Source: Rhodospirillales bacterium
GTDB lineage: Bacteria > Pseudomonadota > Alphaproteobacteria > Acetobacterales > Acetobacteraceae
NCBI GenBank assembly: GCA_018971565.1
Contig: JAGXAO010000009.1
Location: 1-36,993, forward strand
Direction: 5' to 3'
Length of the DNA stretch: 36,993 bases
The notes beneath the pieces were generated by a model. It was given only the letters and a program-made list of their open reading frames with translations, searched no databases and had not been told where the DNA came from. The translations under genes and the position numbers were made by a program. Shown piece by piece: positions 22,443-29,769 of the stretch (positions are counted from its first letter, which is position 1; every line of letters starts with the position of its first letter).

Positions 22443-22467
22443 CGCCAGAGGAAAAACCAGGAAATTG

Positions 22468-22549
22468 ACGCTGCCGGGGTGTCTGCGTGGTGCGGACTGA
22501 GATTATACCCGTTGAACCTGTCTGGGTCATGCCAGCGAAGGGAGAGCGC
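22468..22549 (+). promoter_or_regulatory. TPP (THI-box) riboswitch
   Basis: The thiamine pyrophosphate aptamer core is plain: GGGGTG (22476-22481), a short P3 hairpin (GTCTGC/GCGGAC), CTGAGATTATACCC (22497-22510), TTGAACCTG (22512-22520), then GGGTCATGCCAGCGAAGGGA (22524-22543). The outer P1 stem likely includes CGCT (22469-22472) with AGCG (22545-22548). The 3' end GGGAG (22540-22544) is also the ribosome binding site of the next gene (ATG 22552), so ligand binding should directly occlude translation. No terminator hairpin is present between the aptamer and the gene. Confidence 0.95.
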
Positions 22550-22551
22550 CA

Positions 22552-23505
22552 ATGGCCCTCAATCGTCGTTTATTTTTATCCACCGCCACATCTGCGCTTG
22601 CCGCTCCCGCGGTTTCGCGTGCCGCGGCACCACTGCCATTCACTTTAATTCTGGACTGGTTCGTAAACCCAGACCACGCGCCGCTCTTCGCCGCCAAATA
22701 TTGCGGCGCCTATGCGAAGGCCGGGCTCGATGTAAAGCTCATCGCCCCCACCGACCCCGATGTGCCGCCAAAGCTCGTCGCCGCCGGAAAAGCCGATGCG
22801 GCGCTGACCTACCAGACCCAGCTTTATCTGCTGGTGGACCAGGCCGTGCCCGTGCGCCGTACCGGCACGCTGATCAACAAGCCGTTAAATACGCTCACCG
22901 CGCTGAAGCGCAGCGGAATTTCCAAACTCACGGACCTGAAAGGCCGCAAGGTGGGCTATTCCGTGGCTGGGGTGGAGCCGGTGATCATCGGCGCAATGTT
23001 GAAACATGTGGGCATGAGCCTGAAGGATGTTCAGCTCGTGAATGTGAATTTCGAGCTGGTCTCCGCCCTGCAAACCAACGCGGTGGATGCCGTGATCGGC
23101 ACCTACAGGACCTATGAGGATATCCAGCTTGCACAGGCCGGGCTGGACCCGGTGATCTTCCTGCCTGAGGATTACGGCGTGCCCCCATCAGATGAGCTGC
23201 TGCTGCTCTCGAATGTCAACGGATTGAAGAATCCGGCGCTGCCCGCTTTCCTCGGCGCACTGAAAGAAGGTGTGGCGGCGCTGAAGGCCAACCCGGACGG
23301 GATGCTGGCGAAGTTCCTGAAGGATAATCCCAGCCTGAACGACAAGTTGGACATTGCCTCCTGGCACGCGCTGCCGTCTTATTTCGACACCGATCCGGCG
23401 GCGTTGAATGTACAGCGCTACAAAACCTACAGAGATTTCCTGTTCGAGAATGGCGTGATCAAACAGAAATTGCCTCTGAGCGATTACGCAGTGACCATAG
23501 CCTGA
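22552..23505 (+). CDS. thiY: ThiY-like thiamine-precursor binding protein (NMT1/THI5 family)
   Basis: A 317-residue periplasmic substrate-binding protein of the NMT1/THI5-like family. These bind thiamine pyrimidine precursors such as formylaminopyrimidine for an ABC importer. The start MALNRRLFLSTATSAL looks like a Tat-type signal (RRLFLS). The mature part has LDWFVNPDHAPLFAA (35-49, the family's ligand pocket), YAKAGLDVKLI, ADAALTYQTQ, GRKVGYSVAGVEPV and the GTYRTYED segment. TPP-riboswitch control strongly supports a thiamine role. No permease or ATPase (thiX/thiZ) lies nearby, so the partner is elsewhere or shared. The exact ligand is inferred, not shown. Confidence 0.85.
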   Translation: MALNRRLFLSTATSALAAPAVSRAAAPLPFTLILDWFVNPDHAPLFAAKYCGAYAKAGLDVKLIAPTDPDVPPKLVAAGKADAALTYQTQLYLLVDQAVPVRRTGTLINKPLNTLTALKRSGISKLTDLKGRKVGYSVAGVEPVIIGAMLKHVGMSLKDVQLVNVNFELVSALQTNAVDAVIGTYRTYEDIQLAQAGLDPVIFLPEDYGVPPSDELLLLSNVNGLKNPALPAFLGALKEGVAALKANPDGMLAKFLKDNPSLNDKLDIASWHALPSYFDTDPAALNVQRYKTYRDFLFENGVIKQKLPLSDYAVTIA

Positions 23506-23539: not shown

Positions 23540-23916
23540 GTTTCAATCAGAGCCGGTTAGTGGAAGATGATTTCCACGCGACGGTTCTGCGGCTCGCGCA
23601 CGCCAGGGCCGGTGGGCACCAGCAGGTGGGTTTCGCCGTAGCCGTGCATCTCGATCTCGGAAGCCGGAACGCCATCAGCCACGAGCTGGGCGGCAACCGC
23701 CTTCGCACGACGCTCAGACAGACCCATGTTGTAATCGGCGGTACCGGAGGTATCGGTATAGCCGTTGACTTCCAGGGTCGTGACATTCTGGGTGTGAGAG
23801 TCAGACGCGGCCTGCGCGATAATCTGGGTCGCCCGCGGGGTAAGATTGTACTTATCCCAGTCGAAGAACACCAGATAGGTTTTCGCCGGAGCCGGAGCCG
23901 GAGCCGCCATCGGGGC
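23527..23916 (-). repeat. Long direct repeat, copy 1 (ompA 3' half and terminator arm)
   Basis: This 390-bp segment recurs at 24808-25197 in the same orientation (offset 1281 bp) with 11 mismatches by my count, about 97% identity. It covers a terminator arm, the stop region and the whole OmpA-C domain. All mismatches within coding sequence are synonymous. Confidence 0.9.
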
Positions 23917-24642
23917 CGAAGCAGGGGTGGGGGCGGGGGCGGGGGGAGCAGGCGGCGCGAATTCATAACGCAGCCCGACATTGATCTGGTTATTATATTC
24001 GCCCTGCTGCCGGACGCTAACAGGCACGAAACCGCCTGTGTAATGATAGCGGCGCGCCGCGGTCAGGCCTATGAAGCGATACTCAAGCGTGGCGGAAAGC
24101 CCCTTGAGCGGCGCGATCGGGAAGGACAAGCCAACAATGCCCTGATAGGCGAAGGAGCCTCGCGCCTCATTGATTGTCAGCCCGGTTACACTGAAATCGT
24201 TATACTTGGCTTCCTGCCAGCCAACGCCGGCGCCCACATAGGGGTAGAGCCAGGGCAGACCGATATCGAAATCGTAAATGCCGTTGAGAAAGCCGCCATA
24301 CTGGGTTTCGTGCCCGCTGGCGGGCGCGCTGAAAACGCCAGCTTTCATCTTGTCAGCGGCGTTGCGGATGTAGTCACCCTCAAGCTCCACGCGCCAGCCA
24401 TTATTGAAGCCGTAGCCGATAGCGGCGTTCAGGTCGTAACCATTTTTAAACACGACCTTTCGGTCGCCGGAATAGTCCCTGCCGCCGATATTTATGTTCT
24501 TCTGTGTGACAGAACTTTTCAGGTCCAAGCCTCCACCCAGGCTGACATATGGCCCCGCGACGGGTTGAGCCGCGGCACGGCCCGCCAGCGCCAGGGGCGC
24601 GGCCAGCATTGTCATGGCAAAAAGGGCGGCTCGAAACTGCAT
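23557..24642 (-). CDS. OmpA-family outer membrane protein, paralogue 1
   Basis: A 361-residue protein with a signal peptide (cleavage near AAA-Q, about 25), an N-terminal eight-strand-type beta-barrel (about 30-230, with GPYVSLGGG, YGFNNGWRVELEGDY and YVGAGVGW), an Ala/Pro-rich linker (about 231-255) and a C-terminal OmpA/MotB peptidoglycan-binding domain with VNGYTDTSG and NMGLSERRAKAV. It ties the outer membrane to the cell wall. ATG 24642 follows AAGGGAG. The C-terminal domain is identical in amino acids to that of paralogue 2, while the barrels differ widely. A G10 tract lies about 85 bp upstream. Confidence 0.92.
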   Translation of the reverse strand: MQFRAALFAMTMLAAPLALAGRAAAQPVAGPYVSLGGGLDLKSSVTQKNINIGGRDYSGDRKVVFKNGYDLNAAIGYGFNNGWRVELEGDYIRNAADKMKAGVFSAPASGHETQYGGFLNGIYDFDIGLPWLYPYVGAGVGWQEAKYNDFSVTGLTINEARGSFAYQGIVGLSFPIAPLKGLSATLEYRFIGLTAARRYHYTGGFVPVSVRQQGEYNNQINVGLRYEFAPPAPPAPAPTPASAPMAAPAPAPAKTYLVFFDWDKYNLTPRATQIIAQAASDSHTQNVTTLEVNGYTDTSGTADYNMGLSERRAKAVAAQLVADGVPASEIEMHGYGETHLLVPTGPGVREPQNRRVEIIFH

Positions 24643-24820: not shown

Positions 24821-25197
24821 GTTTCAATCAGAGCCGGTTAGTGGAAAATAATCTCCACCCGGCGGTTCTGCGGCTCGCGCACGCCAGGGCCGGTGGGCAC
24901 CAGCAGGTGGGTTTCGCCGTAGCCATGCATCTCGATCTCGGAAGCCGGAACGCCATCCGCCACGAGCTGGGCGGCAACCGCCTTCGCACGACGCTCAGAC
25001 AGACCCATGTTGTAATCAGCGGTACCGGAGGTATCGGTATAGCCGTTGACTTCCAGGGTCGTGACGTTCTGGGTGTGAGAGTCAGACGCGGCCTGCGCGA
25101 TAATCTGGGTCGCGCGCGGGGTAAGATTGTACTTATCCCAGTCGAAGAACACCAGATAGGTTTTAGCCGGAGCCGGAGCCGGAGCCGCCATCGGGGC
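24808..25197 (-). repeat. Long direct repeat, copy 2
   Basis: Partner of 23527-23916. The identity stops abruptly in the Ala/Pro linker of the gene (at 25197) and thins out within the terminator loop on the other side. Confidence 0.9.
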
Positions 25198-25875
25198 AGG
25201 AGCCGGAGCAGGAGCCGGAGCCGCCGGTGGCTGGAACAGCTGATAGCGCAGACCCAGCAGGAAGGTGTGGCTGGAAGACTGGCCAACCTTGACGTCGCCG
25301 TAGTTGCGGCTTGCGGTCAGCTGAGTGAACTTATACTCAGCCGTGGCGGACAGACCCGGCACGAACGGCAGCGGGTAAGAGAGGCCGCCGATGATGTTAT
25401 AGGCGAAGCTGCCCTTGGTCCCGCCAAGAACGTGACCGCTGGCAGAGTTCATGTCGCTGTTGAACTTCTGCCACTGATAGCCGACGCCAGCGCCGACATA
25501 GGGGAAGATCGGCAGGCCGACATTCATGTCGTACAGCACGTTGACCATCGGGCCATAAGTGTTCAGGCCACCGGTCACAGAATTCTGGGTGCCGTTATCA
25601 TTGTCGATCTTATGGTCGGTATTGCGGTAGAAGTTGCCGTTCAATTCAACACGGAAACCATCGCCAAAGCCGTAACCCACAGCGGCATCACCGGAGTAGG
25701 AGTTGCGGAAAAGCGCTTTACCGCTCGCGCCAGTGGTATTGTCGTGCAGATTGATCGGATTTTGGATGGTGGTGCCCAAACCAAGGCTAACATAGGGACC
25801 GGTCACCGGCTGCGCTTGTGCGGCGATGGGCAGCACAAGGCAAGTGGCGGCGGCAAGAGCTAAACGAAGCTTCAT
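24838..25875 (-). CDS. OmpA-family outer membrane protein, paralogue 2
   Basis: A 345-residue protein with a signal peptide ending AQA-Q (about 21), a beta-barrel (about 22-205, with GPYVSLGLG, YGFGDGFRVELNGNF and YVGAGVGYQW), an Ala/Pro linker coded by hexamer repeats, and a C-terminal OmpA/MotB domain identical to that of paralogue 1. ATG 25875 follows GGAG at eight bases; the frame continues upstream to 25908 but that start lacks a ribosome site. Paralogue 1 lies immediately downstream on the same strand, separated by a terminator and its own promoter region. It is probably an abundant structural porin-like protein. Confidence 0.93.
   Translation of the reverse strand: MKLRLALAAATCLVLPIAAQAQPVTGPYVSLGLGTTIQNPINLHDNTTGASGKALFRNSYSGDAAVGYGFGDGFRVELNGNFYRNTDHKIDNDNGTQNSVTGGLNTYGPMVNVLYDMNVGLPIFPYVGAGVGYQWQKFNSDMNSASGHVLGGTKGSFAYNIIGGLSYPLPFVPGLSATAEYKFTQLTASRNYGDVKVGQSSSHTFLLGLRYQLFQPPAAPAPAPAPAPMAAPAPAPAKTYLVFFDWDKYNLTPRATQIIAQAASDSHTQNVTTLEVNGYTDTSGTADYNMGLSERRAKAVAAQLVADGVPASEIEMHGYGETHLLVPTGPGVREPQNRRVEIIFH
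25166..25224. repeat. GGAGCC/GGAGCA hexanucleotide repeats in ompA linker
   Basis: Imperfect hexamer repeats (units GGAGCC, GGAGCA) code for the Ala-Pro linker of paralogue 2. Unit gain or loss would keep the frame and change linker length. A shorter form is in paralogue 1 (near 23885-23906). Confidence 0.75.
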
Positions 25876-26021
25876 GTCGTGACTCCAATACAGAGTAAAA
25901 TTAATCAACCTAGAGCCATTTAATCCTCTGCGATGGGAATCAACAGGGCAATTTCGCTTTTCGATTTAACATTCTCTCCCTGTTGTATATTTAGCACAAG
26001 TTTGGGCCAGAACCCCTTGAT

Positions 26022-26708
26022 TTACGAACAGGTAATAACTCTGAAAGCTTCGCCGGCGTCGCCCGCATCGGTAGCTCCGGGCACGGAATGAACCATCCAA
26101 CCCCGATAAACCGGGCTGCCGCCGCCCTGGGGGGCATTTGATTGAAGCGTAATGAACGCCGCGGAATCCGGCAGCACACCGGGCGGGCGCATTTCACAGG
26201 CCTGCACGCTCACCGTAAGGTCCCCCGCGACATTTTGCCCGCCGACAGGAATGGTAAGTATTTTGGTGCTGCCATCGATTTTATTGAGAACACCCAGCTC
26301 AGCCGTTTGGCCTGCAACCCACTTATCGGCGGGCACGGGCGCTATGTCGGGCGAGGCAGGCGGCGTGGTTCCGGCAACGGCCGGGGGCACGCTGCCAACC
26401 GCTGGCAATGGCCCCGCGGAAGGTGAGACCGCCTGCACCGGCGAGGCGTCGCCATTATCGGCATTGCCCGCGTTAGGGCCGCCGGATGCGGCATTTGGGG
26501 GAGGAAACGGCGTCTGCACAAGGCCAGGTGGCAGCGCAGGCTGCGGCGCCACAGGCACTTCCGGGGCATTGGGAAGCCCCGCCACAACAGGCGGCGCAGG
26601 GGGCACCACAACCACATCTTGTCCCGGCTGGCTTTGCCCAAGCATGGTTTGGGCGCATGCCGTGCCACCAATGAGCATGGCGGCCGAAGCCAGAAGCATA
26701 AGCCGCAT
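26022..26708 (-). CDS. DUF2155 family secreted protein
   Basis: A 228-residue protein: signal peptide (about 1-19, CAQ), a long Pro/Ala/Gly-rich low-complexity region (about 30-125), then the DUF2155 domain (about 132-228) with ELGVLNKIDGSTKILTIPVG, VSVQACEMRPP, AAFITLQ, YRGWMVHSVPG and a final VITC. Two conserved cysteines (CEMRPP and the terminal C) may form a disulfide. The family is alphaproteobacterial and uncharacterised. Its ATG overlaps the mlaD stop by one base (TAATG), so the two are cotranscribed with NDUFA12. The extended proline-rich spacer is unusually long relative to the domain. Confidence 0.85.
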   Translation of the reverse strand: MRLMLLASAAMLIGGTACAQTMLGQSQPGQDVVVVPPAPPVVAGLPNAPEVPVAPQPALPPGLVQTPFPPPNAASGGPNAGNADNGDASPVQAVSPSAGPLPAVGSVPPAVAGTTPPASPDIAPVPADKWVAGQTAELGVLNKIDGSTKILTIPVGGQNVAGDLTVSVQACEMRPPGVLPDSAAFITLQSNAPQGGGSPVYRGWMVHSVPGATDAGDAGEAFRVITCS

Positions 26709-27217
26709 TACTGAGGCAGTGCCGCGGGGTTCGACGGCTGGGCAGTACCGGCGGAAGATTGCGCCTTGCTGGGGCCGTTACCCATTGAGAAGATAAATTT
26801 ACCAAGCAGATCTTCGATATTCACGGCGGATTGCGTCACCTGGAAACTGGCGCCCGGCTTAAGCATATTATTGGAACCGCCGGGCGAAATCGCGACATAA
26901 GAACCGCCGAGCAGACTGTCCGACGTGATGGAGGCACTGCTGTCATCCGGCACTTTGATATTGTTATTCATCGCCAGCTTGACGATTGCGGCATAGGTTT
27001 GCGGATTCAGCGTCTCAGAAGAGACATGGCCGATGACCACACCGCCGATCTTCACATCGGCACCCACCGTCAGCCCGCCTATGGAGCCGAATTGTGCCTG
27101 CAGCGGATAGCCGCCGGTATTGAGTTCGCCCGCCCCGCGCAGCGCATAGGCAAGAAAGAGAATGGCGACGGCAATGACGGCGAAGCCGACCGTCAGCTCA
27201 GGAGCGCGGCGCACCAT
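26708..27217 (-). CDS. mlaD: MlaD-like MCE domain protein
   Basis: A 169-residue protein with one N-terminal membrane helix (about 8-26), a single MCE/MlaD domain (about 35-115: YPLQAQFGSIGGLTVGADVK, GGVVIGHV, SITSDSLLGGSYVAISPGG) and a short tail rich in Ser/Ala/Pro. MlaD hexamers bind phospholipid at the inner membrane as part of MlaFEDB. The other complex genes are absent here; mlaA-mlaC lie 22 kb away. Starts and stops overlap by one base with both NDUFA12 (TGATG) and DUF2155 (TAATG), indicating a tight operon. Confidence 0.92.
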   Translation of the reverse strand: MVRRAPELTVGFAVIAVAILFLAYALRGAGELNTGGYPLQAQFGSIGGLTVGADVKIGGVVIGHVSSETLNPQTYAAIVKLAMNNNIKVPDDSSASITSDSLLGGSYVAISPGGSNNMLKPGASFQVTQSAVNIEDLLGKFIFSMGNGPSKAQSSAGTAQPSNPAALPQ

Positions 27218-27639
27218 CAGGCTTGATCCGGAGTCCAGGATTCATAATCGGCCGAGGCGGCCGCCCGCTTGCCCCCCATGTAATCATGGCCCGCGGGGCG
27301 GTAGCTCTGCGCTGTGCCGGTGAGGTTCGGCTTGTGCGGGCGCTGCCAGGGGCGGGCCCGCGCCACCAGCGGCGCATCGGTAAGATGGTGCAGCCAGGCG
27401 TGCCATTCGGGCGGCACCACGGAAGGGTCCTGCGGGCCGGCATAAACCACCCAGCGGCGTGCGCGGGGCTTGCCCGGGCGCTCGAAATACTGGTTTCCCA
27501 TATCGTCGCGGCCGATGAAGCGGCCCCGGAACATGGTAAGGAAGTAAAGACCGGGATTGCTGATCAGCCCTTTGAGGCCAAGCGGCCGGGCCTTGGGCGT
27601 GGGGCCGTTGGCGGCCGGTGTCTGCGCGGCAGTGCTCAT
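27217..27639 (-). CDS. NDUFA12-like complex I accessory subunit
   Basis: A 140-residue homologue of the mitochondrial complex I subunit NDUFA12 (B17.2), found in alphaproteobacteria. Core: FRGRFIGRDDMGNQYFE (about 37-53), RRWVVYAGPQDPSVVPPEWH (about 61-80), AWLHHLTDAP, then KPNLTGTAQSYRPAG. It packs on the peripheral arm of NADH:ubiquinone oxidoreductase. The N-terminal about 20 residues are Ala/Pro-rich. It heads an operon with mlaD and DUF2155 and is divergent from the reductase-like gene. Confidence 0.92.
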   Translation of the reverse strand: MSTAAQTPAANGPTPKARPLGLKGLISNPGLYFLTMFRGRFIGRDDMGNQYFERPGKPRARRWVVYAGPQDPSVVPPEWHAWLHHLTDAPLVARARPWQRPHKPNLTGTAQSYRPAGHDYMGGKRAAASADYESWTPDQA

Positions 27640-27714: not shown

Positions 27715-27723
27715 CTATCCACA
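27715..27723 (+). promoter_or_regulatory. DnaA-box-like 9-mer
   Basis: CTATCCACA differs at one base from the DnaA box TTATCCACA and overlaps the first NrdR-like box. A single site is weak evidence; it is recorded because E. coli nrdAB is controlled by both DnaA and NrdR. Confidence 0.25.
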
Positions 27724-27734
27724 GGATTTTGTGT
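27719..27734 (+). promoter_or_regulatory. NrdR-like box 1
   Basis: CCACAGGATTTTGTGT matches 12 of 16 positions of the NrdR box consensus as I recall it (aCaCwAtATaTwGtgt). It is one of a pair upstream of the reductase-like gene. Confidence 0.45.
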
Positions 27735-27750: not shown

Positions 27751-27766
27751 ACACAAGATACACTTT
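27751..27766 (+). promoter_or_regulatory. NrdR-like box 2
   Basis: ACACAAGATACACTTT also matches 12 of 16 positions, with a near-perfect left half. It starts 32 bp after box 1 (16-bp gap), the spacing typical of paired NrdR boxes, and ends 32 bp before the ATG at 27799. Confidence 0.45.
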
Positions 27767-27798: not shown

Positions 27799-29304
27799 AT
27801 GGCACAAAGCAGAACCGATAAATCCTGGCATGGCATCAAGCTAGCGGCCTTCGACGCAGCTTCAGACCCCGATGCCCCACCTGTGATGGTAACACTGCCC
27901 GCCGCATGGGGACAGAAAGCCGCCGATGCGCTGGCCGCCATCCTGCCGGGCAAGCGCATGCTGCATATTGCCGAGGCCGCCGAAGCCTGGATTGCCCCCA
28001 TCGCCGCGCGGGCCGCCGCGGCTGGTTTGACCGAGGGGATTGCAAGCGCATTGCATAAGCTCGTGGCCCTGCACCGCGCCAGCCCCAGCGCCAATGTGTG
28101 GCGCAACCGCGCCGCCGGGCAGCCAGGCTTTGTGTTCAACCCCTCAGCCTATCTGGATGAAGCAGGCACGTTCGACATCGCGGCACTGGGCCATGACGTG
28201 CGGCTGGCGGTGACAGCGCTGACCCTCGCCGCACCCGCCGAACACCGGCTGCGGCTGGGTTTTACAGATTTGAACCTGCTCCTCGCCCGGCTGGGCCTGG
28301 CCTACGATTCCCAGGAGGCGCGGGATTTGGCCGTGGCACTGGCGGGGTATATCGGCGCACAGGCGGATATCGCCTCCGCAACGCTGCTGGCGCGCGGGGC
28401 CGCCCCCGGCTACCGAATCACCAGCGCGAAACTGCCGGAAAACAGCGCGCTGCCCGGCCTGCTGCCCGCCGCCACCGCCGCGCGGGAAGAAGCGGCCAGC
28501 CTGGGCCAGCGCCGCCATGAAACATTGCTGGGCTTTTTAAACGAGCCAGAAACCGAGGCGTTGCTGGGTGCGGAACAGGTGAATTTCGCCCCTGCCCTCT
28601 CGGCGCTGGATGAGGACGGCAAGCTTGCCCACTGGGCTTTGCAATCCCTCGCCGCGCGCGGGCTGACAACGGAAACCGCCCTGGCCCGGATGCTGAGCGG
28701 GGAGGAAATTTTTGCCACCCCCCGTACCGCTGCCCATGCCGCGATGCACGACGCCCTGGCCGCCCTGGTGCCGGTGATGCCGGCACGCCCTGCCGCCCCG
28801 GTGGCGCCACGCCGTGCCTCCACCCGCGAGATGCTGCCCACGCGCCGCAGCGGCTACACACAGAAAGTGGCCGTGGGCGGGCACAAGCTGTTCCTCTCCA
28901 CCGGCGAATATAAGGATGGCCGCCTGGGTGAAATCTTCATTGCCCTGCACAAGGAGGGCTCGGCCTTCCGCGGGCTGATGGATGCCTTCGCCATCTCCAT
29001 CAGCATTGGGCTGCAGCACGGGGTAAGCCTGGAAGATTACGTGGAAGCCTTCACCTTCACCCGTTTCGGGCCCGCCGGCGCCGTGGAGGGCGACCCCGCC
29101 GTACCCGCCGCCACCTCCATGCTGGATTACGTTTTCCGCAATCTGGCGGTGAATTATCTGGGCCAGACCAACCTGGCCCCGGCCAGCATTGACGAGCCGG
29201 ACAGCGTGGGCGAGGGTGCCGCAGAGCGTGCGCCGCTGCTGCCGCTGGACCTGCCAGCCCCAGCACCGCGAGAGCGCCGCCGAAACTTAAAACTGGTGGG
29301 CTGA
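27799..29304 (+). CDS. Cysteine-free NrdJ-like protein with TSCPD domain
   Basis: A 501-residue protein whose C-terminal part (about 348-461) is plainly the TSCPD domain of B12-dependent ribonucleotide reductase Nrd[65 protein letters not shown] and [16 protein letters not shown] middle segment (about 153-200, [20 protein letters not shown]) resembles part of the NrdJ barrel. The protein has no cysteine at all, so it lacks the radical and redox cysteines and the C-terminal zinc-type CxxC. It therefore cannot be a reductase. Homologues in this bacterial group are, to my knowledge, uncharacterised. Its stop is three bases before a RidA-like gene, so they are probably cotranscribed. Confidence 0.85.
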
Positions 29305-29307
29305 CCT

Positions 29308-29769
29308 ATGACCATTTCCGCGCGGCTGGCAGAGCTGGGCATCACCCTGCCACAAGCCATGGCCCCGGTTGCGAACTACGTTCCGGTGAGCATCACCGGC
29401 AATTTGGTTACGGTGAGCGGCCAGCTGCCCGCCATGGCTGGCAAGGTGACTGTAACAGGCAAGCTGGGGGCTGCCGTTTCACTTGAGGAAGGCCGGCATG
29501 CGGCGCGGTTGTGCGTTATCAACATGCTGGCGCAGTTGCAGGCCGCACTACCCGGCGGGCTGGACAGCATCAGCAAGGTCGTCCGCCTCGGAGGTTTCAT
29601 CGCCTGCACACCAGATTTTACCCAGCATGCGGTGGTGATGAACGGCGCATCAGACCTTGCCGTGGCGGTTTTTGGCGAGGCCGGGCGCCACGCGCGCTCC
29701 ACCATCGGCGTACCCTCACTGCCGCTCGATGCCGCTGTTGAGGTCGAAGGGCTGTTTTATATCGGCTGA
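29308..29769 (+). CDS. RidA/YjgF-like protein
   Basis: A 153-residue protein of the RidA/YjgF/YER057c superfamily, in the longer subgroup. Motifs: YVPVSITGNLVTVSGQLP, EEGRHAARLCVINMLAQLQA, VVRLGGFIACTPDF and the ending GRHARSTIGVPSLPLDAAVE. RidA deaminates reactive enamine/imine intermediates; the Arg in HARSTIG corresponds to the key Arg of active members, but the activity here is untested. The start is three bases after the reductase-like gene, which suggests a joint function. Confidence 0.88.
   Translation: MTISARLAELGITLPQAMAPVANYVPVSITGNLVTVSGQLPAMAGKVTVTGKLGAAVSLEEGRHAARLCVINMLAQLQAALPGGLDSISKVVRLGGFIACTPDFTQHAVVMNGASDLAVAVFGEAGRHARSTIGVPSLPLDAAVEVEGLFYIG

Follow-up and report, generated by a model that had tools for sequence, protein, structure and literature searches.

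The gene at positions 27799..29304 (+) of the window, that is, of the whole 36,993-nucleotide stretch analysed here, is best read as nrdJ, encoding the long alphaproteobacterial class II ribonucleotide reductase (RNR), eroded in place. Synteny and alignment show that it occupies the common alphaproteobacterial nrdJ site and that its 501-residue product is collinear with the second half of NrdJ, the parts required for reduction being missing. Profile matches, the collinear alignment and the locus all point to an eroded, non-catalytic NrdJ ("ghost NrdJ"), called the remnant below. We assign a probability of about 0.7 to the explanation as a whole, namely that nrdJ was eroded in place, is maintained by selection under NrdR-type control, and now acts as a non-catalytic accessory of dNTP supply. 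As a gene without the active site is kept in place and preserved, a part of NrdJ is suggested to have a job besides making DNA building blocks.

The frame opens with ATG, and its translation confirms 501 residues, none of them cysteine. Full-length homologues are present in 24 of the 25 genomes of the same genus, its own counted, and this conservation confirms a real gene, excluding a chance frame. Pfam places a TSCPD domain at residues 353-450 (E 3.7e-10, above the cut-off), and the assignment to PF12637 is clear, 40.4 bits against a gathering cut-off of 22.8. The domain, assigned to the long alphaproteobacterial NrdJ type by Pfam, a segment HMM (186.5 bits) and an AF2 model (mean pLDDT 89), spans residues 343-463 (28825..29187, +) and is 60-66% identical to that of nine true NrdJs. 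PRK07562, the NCBIfam model of NrdJ, gives a match split into two stretches with E 2e-64, far below its whole-protein cut-off; the NF005736 cut-off of 1737 bits was set aside, as no control genome, Caulobacter among them, reaches it. A weak RNR barrel match at residues 146-206 (Pfam E 0.002) is below the cut-off.

The relation to NrdJ extends past the TSCPD domain. When the family profile was aligned by hhalign to that of nine long NrdJs (L134-L142), residues 113-478 correspond to profile positions 506-1118 with probability 100. Upstream of them the matches are collinear but weak (9-49 with 28-73, probability 1.9; 81-104 with 150-173, probability 0.1), and the relation of residues 1-112 to NrdJ is suggestive. 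In the segment HMM test the homologues (n=45) were scored against the best of 945 decoys, which was exceeded by all 45 for TSCPD and by 43 for the post-finger segment. Hhalign and the segment HMM thus delimit a barrel remnant just past the finger loop, at residues 113-206 (28135..28416, +), the best-matching part being 150-197. Residues 254-268 (28558..28602, +) align with the NrdJ stretch GLVMDCDTTGIEPDF and are its putative relic; for this GIEP segment the best decoy is surpassed by 10 of the 45 homologues, but not by the row of the window itself. The NrdJ segment 125-175 is inseparable from decoys (1/45), and none of the 45 homologues passes for NrdJ segments 10-75, the N-terminal barrel half (NrdJ 176-480), the HIRMM-like stretch or the zinc finger. 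The initial annotation had derived both TSCPD and a mid-protein segment from NrdJ; this holds from residue 113 onwards, the profile evidence for residues 1-112 being weak.

The predicted structure agrees with this descent in part. The AF2 model has a mean pLDDT of 80, with block means of 83-98 over residues 11-330, and its top Foldseek match in PDB is the Rhodobacter sphaeroides class II RNR (E 2.3e-8), but the TM-scores are low, 0.32/0.19, with rmsd 5.7. The sequence search against PDB chains yielded a best E of 0.045 for the whole protein and 0.5 for the TSCPD profile, and Foldseek found no PDB match to the TSCPD fold at E <= 0.001.

As had been proposed at the outset, the protein is predicted to be non-catalytic. 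It contains neither the NPC[SG]E finger-loop motif with the radical cysteine, situated in the missing half of the barrel, nor the second active-site cysteine. PTGT, which we take to be the substrate-phosphate loop of NrdJ and which normally stands just before the stretch GLVMDCDTTGIEPDF, is missing as well, and so are the C-terminal zinc finger and cysteine pair, a feature of most dimeric class II enzymes. The combination of lost catalytic residues with purifying selection on the protein sequence (dS about 0.8, hence a rough estimate) is that expected of a pseudoenzyme; the broken frames or neutral evolution of a pseudogene are not observed. Nor does the gene fit a split NrdJa/NrdJb system, in which the small chain bears redox cysteines and the genome also encodes a catalytic NrdJa.

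The absence of cysteines had been ascribed to selective loss of every one of them, but it is not special. The twelve neighbouring proteins contain 0.46% cysteine, giving a probability of 0.10 for none in 501 residues, and the homologue family has on average 2.0 cysteines per protein (range 0-6), giving a Poisson probability of 0.13. Thus about one in 8-10 such proteins is expected to be cysteine-free, and in the alignment 6 of 45 rows are, matching the Poisson expectation. No cysteine column is conserved among the 45 rows, the commonest being common to 14; the TSCPD columns hold three cysteine letters in total, none of them in the window's domain. The catalytic cysteines vanished together with entire blocks of the barrel, and cysteine loss as a selected trait was rejected. 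The alignment consists of the window and 44 of the 54 homologue loci; full-length near-duplicates (L045, L048, L068), fragments (L076, L078, L083, L084) and loci holding a true NrdJ (L082, L085, L086) were dropped.

The neighbourhood, identified by domain matches and synteny, is that of nrdJ. NDUFA12 (27217..27639, -) is the divergent neighbour; it is adjoined by a MlaD-domain gene (26708..27217, -), and the latter by a DUF2155 gene (26022..26708, -). Among 51 homologue loci, 42 have NDUFA12 divergently next to the remnant; of the remaining nine, five have less than 320 bp upstream, and L033, L038, L067 and L075 have more. Eleven further family genomes have NDUFA12 in nine cases and MlaD in all eleven. 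True NrdJs (1,200-1,300 aa) of other alphaproteobacteria adjoin divergent NDUFA12 and MlaD in 6/9 loci. On the other side, a YjgF/RidA-type gene (29308..29769, +) starts 3 bp downstream of the remnant and is perhaps co-transcribed with it; it is found there in 49 of 51 remnant loci and downstream of true NrdJ in one of nine (L180).

Two 16-bp sites resembling NrdR boxes are situated 80 and 48 bp ahead of the start codon: box 1, CCACAGGATTTTGTGT, at 27719..27734 (+), and box 2, ACACAAGATACACTTT, at 27751..27766 (+), 32 bp from start to start. They were identified by a consensus-pair test with a 16-bp sequence that we take to be the NrdR consensus. All 44 remnant promoters with 200 clean bases (out of 45 rows) yield P<=0.015, with the best spacing of 30-32, and the box 1 pattern is found in 44 of the 45 upstream regions. 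Among nrdJ promoters of other alphaproteobacteria 32/34 have P<=0.05, both inactivated NrdJs described below included; 48 loci were tried, and those with no recognisable start or insufficient sequence were dropped. The controls passed in 4/150 and 6/150 random stretches, 8/80 AT-richer stretches and none of the 13 other promoters in the window. Of five nrdA promoters whose start was found correctly (L195-L197, L201, L202), four pass; L198-L200, with misassigned starts, are not in this count. None of the four NrdJ_Z-type promoters passes, the start of L206 being doubtful, and a motif model derived from the remnant promoters gave no outstanding match at those of nrdA or the NrdJ_Z type. In genus g70, where both genes are present, the P-values are 0.023, 0.020 and 0.083 for the remnant, so that one of three fails, and 0.007, 0.003 and 0.020 for the long nrdJ. 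The remnant keeps its boxes in L065 and L066, in which NDUFA12 is more distant by about 2 and 3 kb, and in L067 and L075, in which NDUFA12 was not found.

NrdR binds two boxes about three helix turns apart (PMC9110341, as far as its accessible part goes), and this is the arrangement seen here; an NrdR gene is present in the same genome. Hence the remnant is likely to be controlled by NrdR. No cobalamin riboswitch was found at gathering scores upstream of the remnant in the window and seven other loci. The front of box 1, that is, its left end with the preceding TAT (CTATCCACA, 27716-27724), presumably resembles a DnaA box, and since the first site has this resemblance, there may be dual control by NrdR and DnaA. 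In some relatives, e.g. L062 and L073, the position at the front of box 1 is occupied by TTATCCACA.

The remnant coexists with various reductases. In its own genome (2.16 Mb in 166 contigs) TSCPD is matched once more, in a class II enzyme (L002) with NPCGE and C-terminal CxxC pairs, whose type we take to be NrdJ_Z; a barrel frame of the NrdA type and NrdB are also found. Here NrdA-type, a name that we infer, denotes a frame that is about 620-740 aa long and whose barrel match is split in two. Eight genomes of the genus (G003, G004, G006, G013, G015, G021, G043, G048), six of them 94-99% complete, carry the remnant and solely an NrdA-type barrel. In the three genomes of genus g70 (L339, L341, L342) the remnant is situated beside NDUFA12, an intact NrdJ frame of 1,196-1,231 aa is encoded at another locus, and NrdB was not found. 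The long NrdJ of g70 may be read as transfer or as retention; the suggestion that the family wholly lacks long NrdJ was rejected on its account. Finally, G128 has the remnant and an NrdJ_Z-type enzyme, with NrdB not found. As the remnant accompanies NrdA-type enzymes alone, NrdJ_Z with no detected NrdB, or an intact long NrdJ, its gene context does not tie it to one RNR class, and no partner class stands out.

The same combinations bear on the possibility that the remnant is a regulator binding and tuning class I NrdAB directly. NrdB occurs in 183 of the 200 family genomes, and both the genomes with the NrdA-type barrel alone and the box pairs at nrdA promoters are consistent with such a role; however, g70 and G128 keep the remnant where NrdB was not found, and we consider this regulator rather unlikely.

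Comparison with five close relatives (L033, L034, L035, L036, L038) yields dN/dS of 0.13-0.16 over the whole gene (about 0.14), 0.15-0.18 for residues 1-334, and 0.06-0.11 for residues 340-476, containing TSCPD; all these figures are rough because dS is near 0.8. Thus codon comparisons show the remnant to be under purifying selection, strongest in TSCPD, and together with its full length in nearly all genomes of the genus this bears out the earlier impression of a retained gene.

In a wider sample of the genus, the TSCPD piece is present in 33 of 38 genomes, the other five being drafts that are 77-86% complete. Of the 200 genomes in the family sample, 183 have a match at E<=0.001, as do 94 of its 102 genera, weak matches counted in; in the class sample, with the limit at E<=1e-15, a match is present in 181 of the 289 genomes. 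Outside the family, the matches listed are in frames of about 1,060-1,370 aa, the exceptions being G482 (325), G382 (852) and G500 (918). The genus sample g1 is taken to be Acidocella and the family sample f1 to be Acetobacteraceae because the closest named homologues are Acidocella records (A. aminolytica, A. facilis and others). The homologue records are mostly labelled Acidocella, Acetobacteraceae, Rhodospirillales or Roseomonas, or are MAGs. A full-length remnant (L071, 3600-5144) is also seen in a MAG titled Nitrosovibrio, a betaproteobacterial name, and is probably a binning error.

The gene is not universal. No remnant was detected in genus g79 (3 genomes) and in G119, therefore it can be lost. 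Two positional orthologues have no TSCPD, L345 (G205, genus g113; from 3987 onward) and L346 (G098, genus g62; from 4307 onward), each seen in the one genome examined per genus. They are situated between NDUFA12 and YjgF, match NrdJ from about 490-550 to 770-880 and have NrdR-like boxes at P 0.023 and 0.003, respectively. These two keep more of the second barrel half of NrdJ, without TSCPD, and look like complementary erosion of one gene. In L344 (G247, g113) the flanking genes are present, and no NrdJ match was seen by BLAST. In the Roseomonas MAG loci L079-L081 TSCPD is degenerate. Therefore, TSCPD is not needed in every lineage.

These orthologues, the genomes with no remnant detected and the faster divergence of residues outside TSCPD are what one would expect from a slowly decaying functionless relic whose frame stays open by chance or because its translation is coupled to that of the RidA gene downstream. 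Such decay is quite improbable in view of the full length in the genus, the matches, weak ones included, in 94 of 102 family genera, the low dN/dS of TSCPD and the conservation of the NrdR-like boxes.

The remnant had also been suggested to bind NrdJ. A class II partner of this kind has a precedent in the accessible part of PMC4520616, which describes NrdJb as the small subunit of the split class II RNR of Pseudomonas aeruginosa, and NrdJb resembles the remnant in having a C-terminal NrdJ domain on a separate chain. TSCPD is common to NrdJ and the remnant, and the second class II enzyme of the same genome, L002, could be the counterpart. On the other hand, the account of NrdJb in that source has it bearing redox cysteines and working with NrdJa, whereas the remnant has no cysteine array, keeps parts of the barrel and occurs in genomes without any other NrdJ; L002 itself bears its own TSCPD. 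Since in eight genomes of the genus the sole barrel besides the remnant is of the NrdA type, the remnant is unlikely to be an obligate partner of NrdJ, the idea fails as a conserved role, and overall we find a class II subunit very unlikely.

What TSCPD itself does had been considered unsettled. This remains so in part, as the region is partly characterised: in the available portions of the sources, the class II C-terminal domain mediates both electron transfer and the oligomerisation induced by dATP/dGTP (PMC5704485), and the alpha+beta part of the class II C-terminus, for which dimerisation is proposed, has a predicted IscU-like fold, NrdJb included (PMC9669993). TSCPD would correspond to this alpha+beta part, because its length, position and AF2 model agree. 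Given the predicted fold, TSCPD might serve iron-sulphur or metal handling, and ISCU chains appear four times among the 50 Foldseek matches listed, although at insignificant E >= 0.44. However, the scarcity of cysteines in the TSCPD columns and their absence from the window's domain argue against it, as does the motif position, which already reads TSILD in the intact NrdJ L134; we think metal handling highly unlikely.

Two inactivated NrdJs are known to us from other alphaproteobacteria, outside the remnant family; both were picked for their odd look and are not a random sample. The 1,120-aa NrdJ of G323 (L216/L263) is collinear with true NrdJ (40.6% over 1,171 positions) and adjoins NDUFA12, MlaD and DUF2155, with NPCSE, PTGT and the zinc finger missing. 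The 912-aa NrdJ of G500 (L217) keeps the C-terminal CxxC pairs and has neither NPCSE nor PTGT. NPC[SG]E and PTGT are both kept in 47 of 47 other NrdJs inspected. The N-terminal barrel half of L263 and L217 has an identity of 0.34 and 0.23 to 46 intact enzymes, against 0.73 for intact pairs; for TSCPD the values are 0.80 and 0.83, against 0.83. Since NrdJs inactivated separately keep TSCPD about 80% identical while the barrel has diverged, TSCPD probably does something that can be separated from catalysis. Each of the two genomes has an NrdA-type frame, and G323 also has a 738-aa frame with a full barrel. G500 contains a second, contig-cut copy of the inactivated NrdJ (L243), a duplicate or an assembly overlap.

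In the RpoB tree, comprising 27 of the 30 requested genomes, seven family genomes form one clade, sister to G569 with its intact NrdJ, and G323 and G500 are placed elsewhere, among intact relatives. Grouping every inactivated lineage into a single clade is rejected (p-AU 0.002), and because of this the phylogeny implies at least two origins of NrdJ inactivation, perhaps three, the grouping of G323 and G500 alone not being rejected (p 0.17). In the barrel tree the two inactivated NrdJs came together, but on long branches, and this tree was not used. In quick TSCPD trees (19 and 17 rows) the remnants used form one clade with SH-aLRT 100.

An unrelated fusion, in which only TSCPD comes from NrdJ and residues 1-340 are foreign, is hardly credible: the N-terminal NrdJ segments do fail against decoys (0 and 1 of 45), but the post-finger segment passes, the alignment is collinear, the locus is the same, and the full-length inactivated relatives represent the intermediate state.

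For the preferred reading, erosion in place, the simplest view is that nrdJ was cut down by internal deletions in an ancestor of the Acetobacteraceae remnant family, and that the shortened gene would still be under NrdR-type control through the two boxes about three helix turns apart. The 501-aa protein would be a non-catalytic accessory of dNTP supply, probably NrdR-controlled; TSCPD might bind itself, or a partner present whichever RNR class does the chemistry, and the barrel remnant might be a scaffold. A broader version, which we offer tentatively and judge somewhat short of an even bet, is that a second, catalysis-independent function of the IscU-like TSCPD kept nrdJ alive at least two times independently, perhaps three, where another RNR had made the barrel dispensable, and that most Acetobacteraceae now use the resulting NrdR-controlled, non-catalytic protein to control or organise dNTP supply.

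The closest known system is the long alphaproteobacterial NrdJ itself (PRK07562; R. sphaeroides 7b9p/7b9q), which shares with the remnant the locus, TSCPD, a part of the second barrel half and NrdR-like boxes, but has about 1,250 residues, not 501, and possesses the radical and redox cysteines, the PTGT loop and the zinc finger. Like the remnant, short free-standing proteins of the TIGR03905 type have TSCPD without the catalytic barrel; to our knowledge, they are not known as nrdJ relics. Erosion in place throughout a whole family, with promoter elements apparently kept, is known to us for few bacterial enzymes. The series from the active enzyme of about 1,250 aa through the inactivated ones of 1,120 and 912 aa to the remnant of about 500 aa separates the barrel from TSCPD and indicates which part is usually retained by selection. 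As TSCPD no longer serves a reductase in organisms with the remnant, the role of this putatively IscU-like domain can be tested there. In the Acetobacteraceae, matches to TSCPD or weak matches to ribonucleotide reductase are no proof of B12-dependent DNA synthesis.

Inactive herpesvirus R1 homologues, e.g. HCMV UL45, are likewise non-catalytic homologues of the RNR large subunit put to another use; by the accessible part of PMC5469499, UL45 is viral, akin to the cellular large subunit and acts on host signalling, whereas the remnant is of class II, bacterial, in place and family-wide. No inactive bacterial NrdJ is described in the titles and abstracts retrieved on TSCPD, class II RNR, RNR pseudoenzymes and acetic-acid genera, which cover part of the matching literature, with subscription papers mostly outside. 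The main text of a Gluconobacter transposon paper (PMC12041372), the part of it that was available, contains neither "ribonucleotide" nor "nrd".

Two further features of the window may be mentioned. A TPP riboswitch (RF00059, 58.2 bits) is situated at 22465-22562 (+), at the start or upstream of the frames beginning at 22479 and 22552. Two tandem OmpA-like outer-membrane genes (23557-24642 and 24838-25908, both -) have identical translations from PAPAKTY to the end and different barrels, which may be read as a recent duplication or gene conversion.
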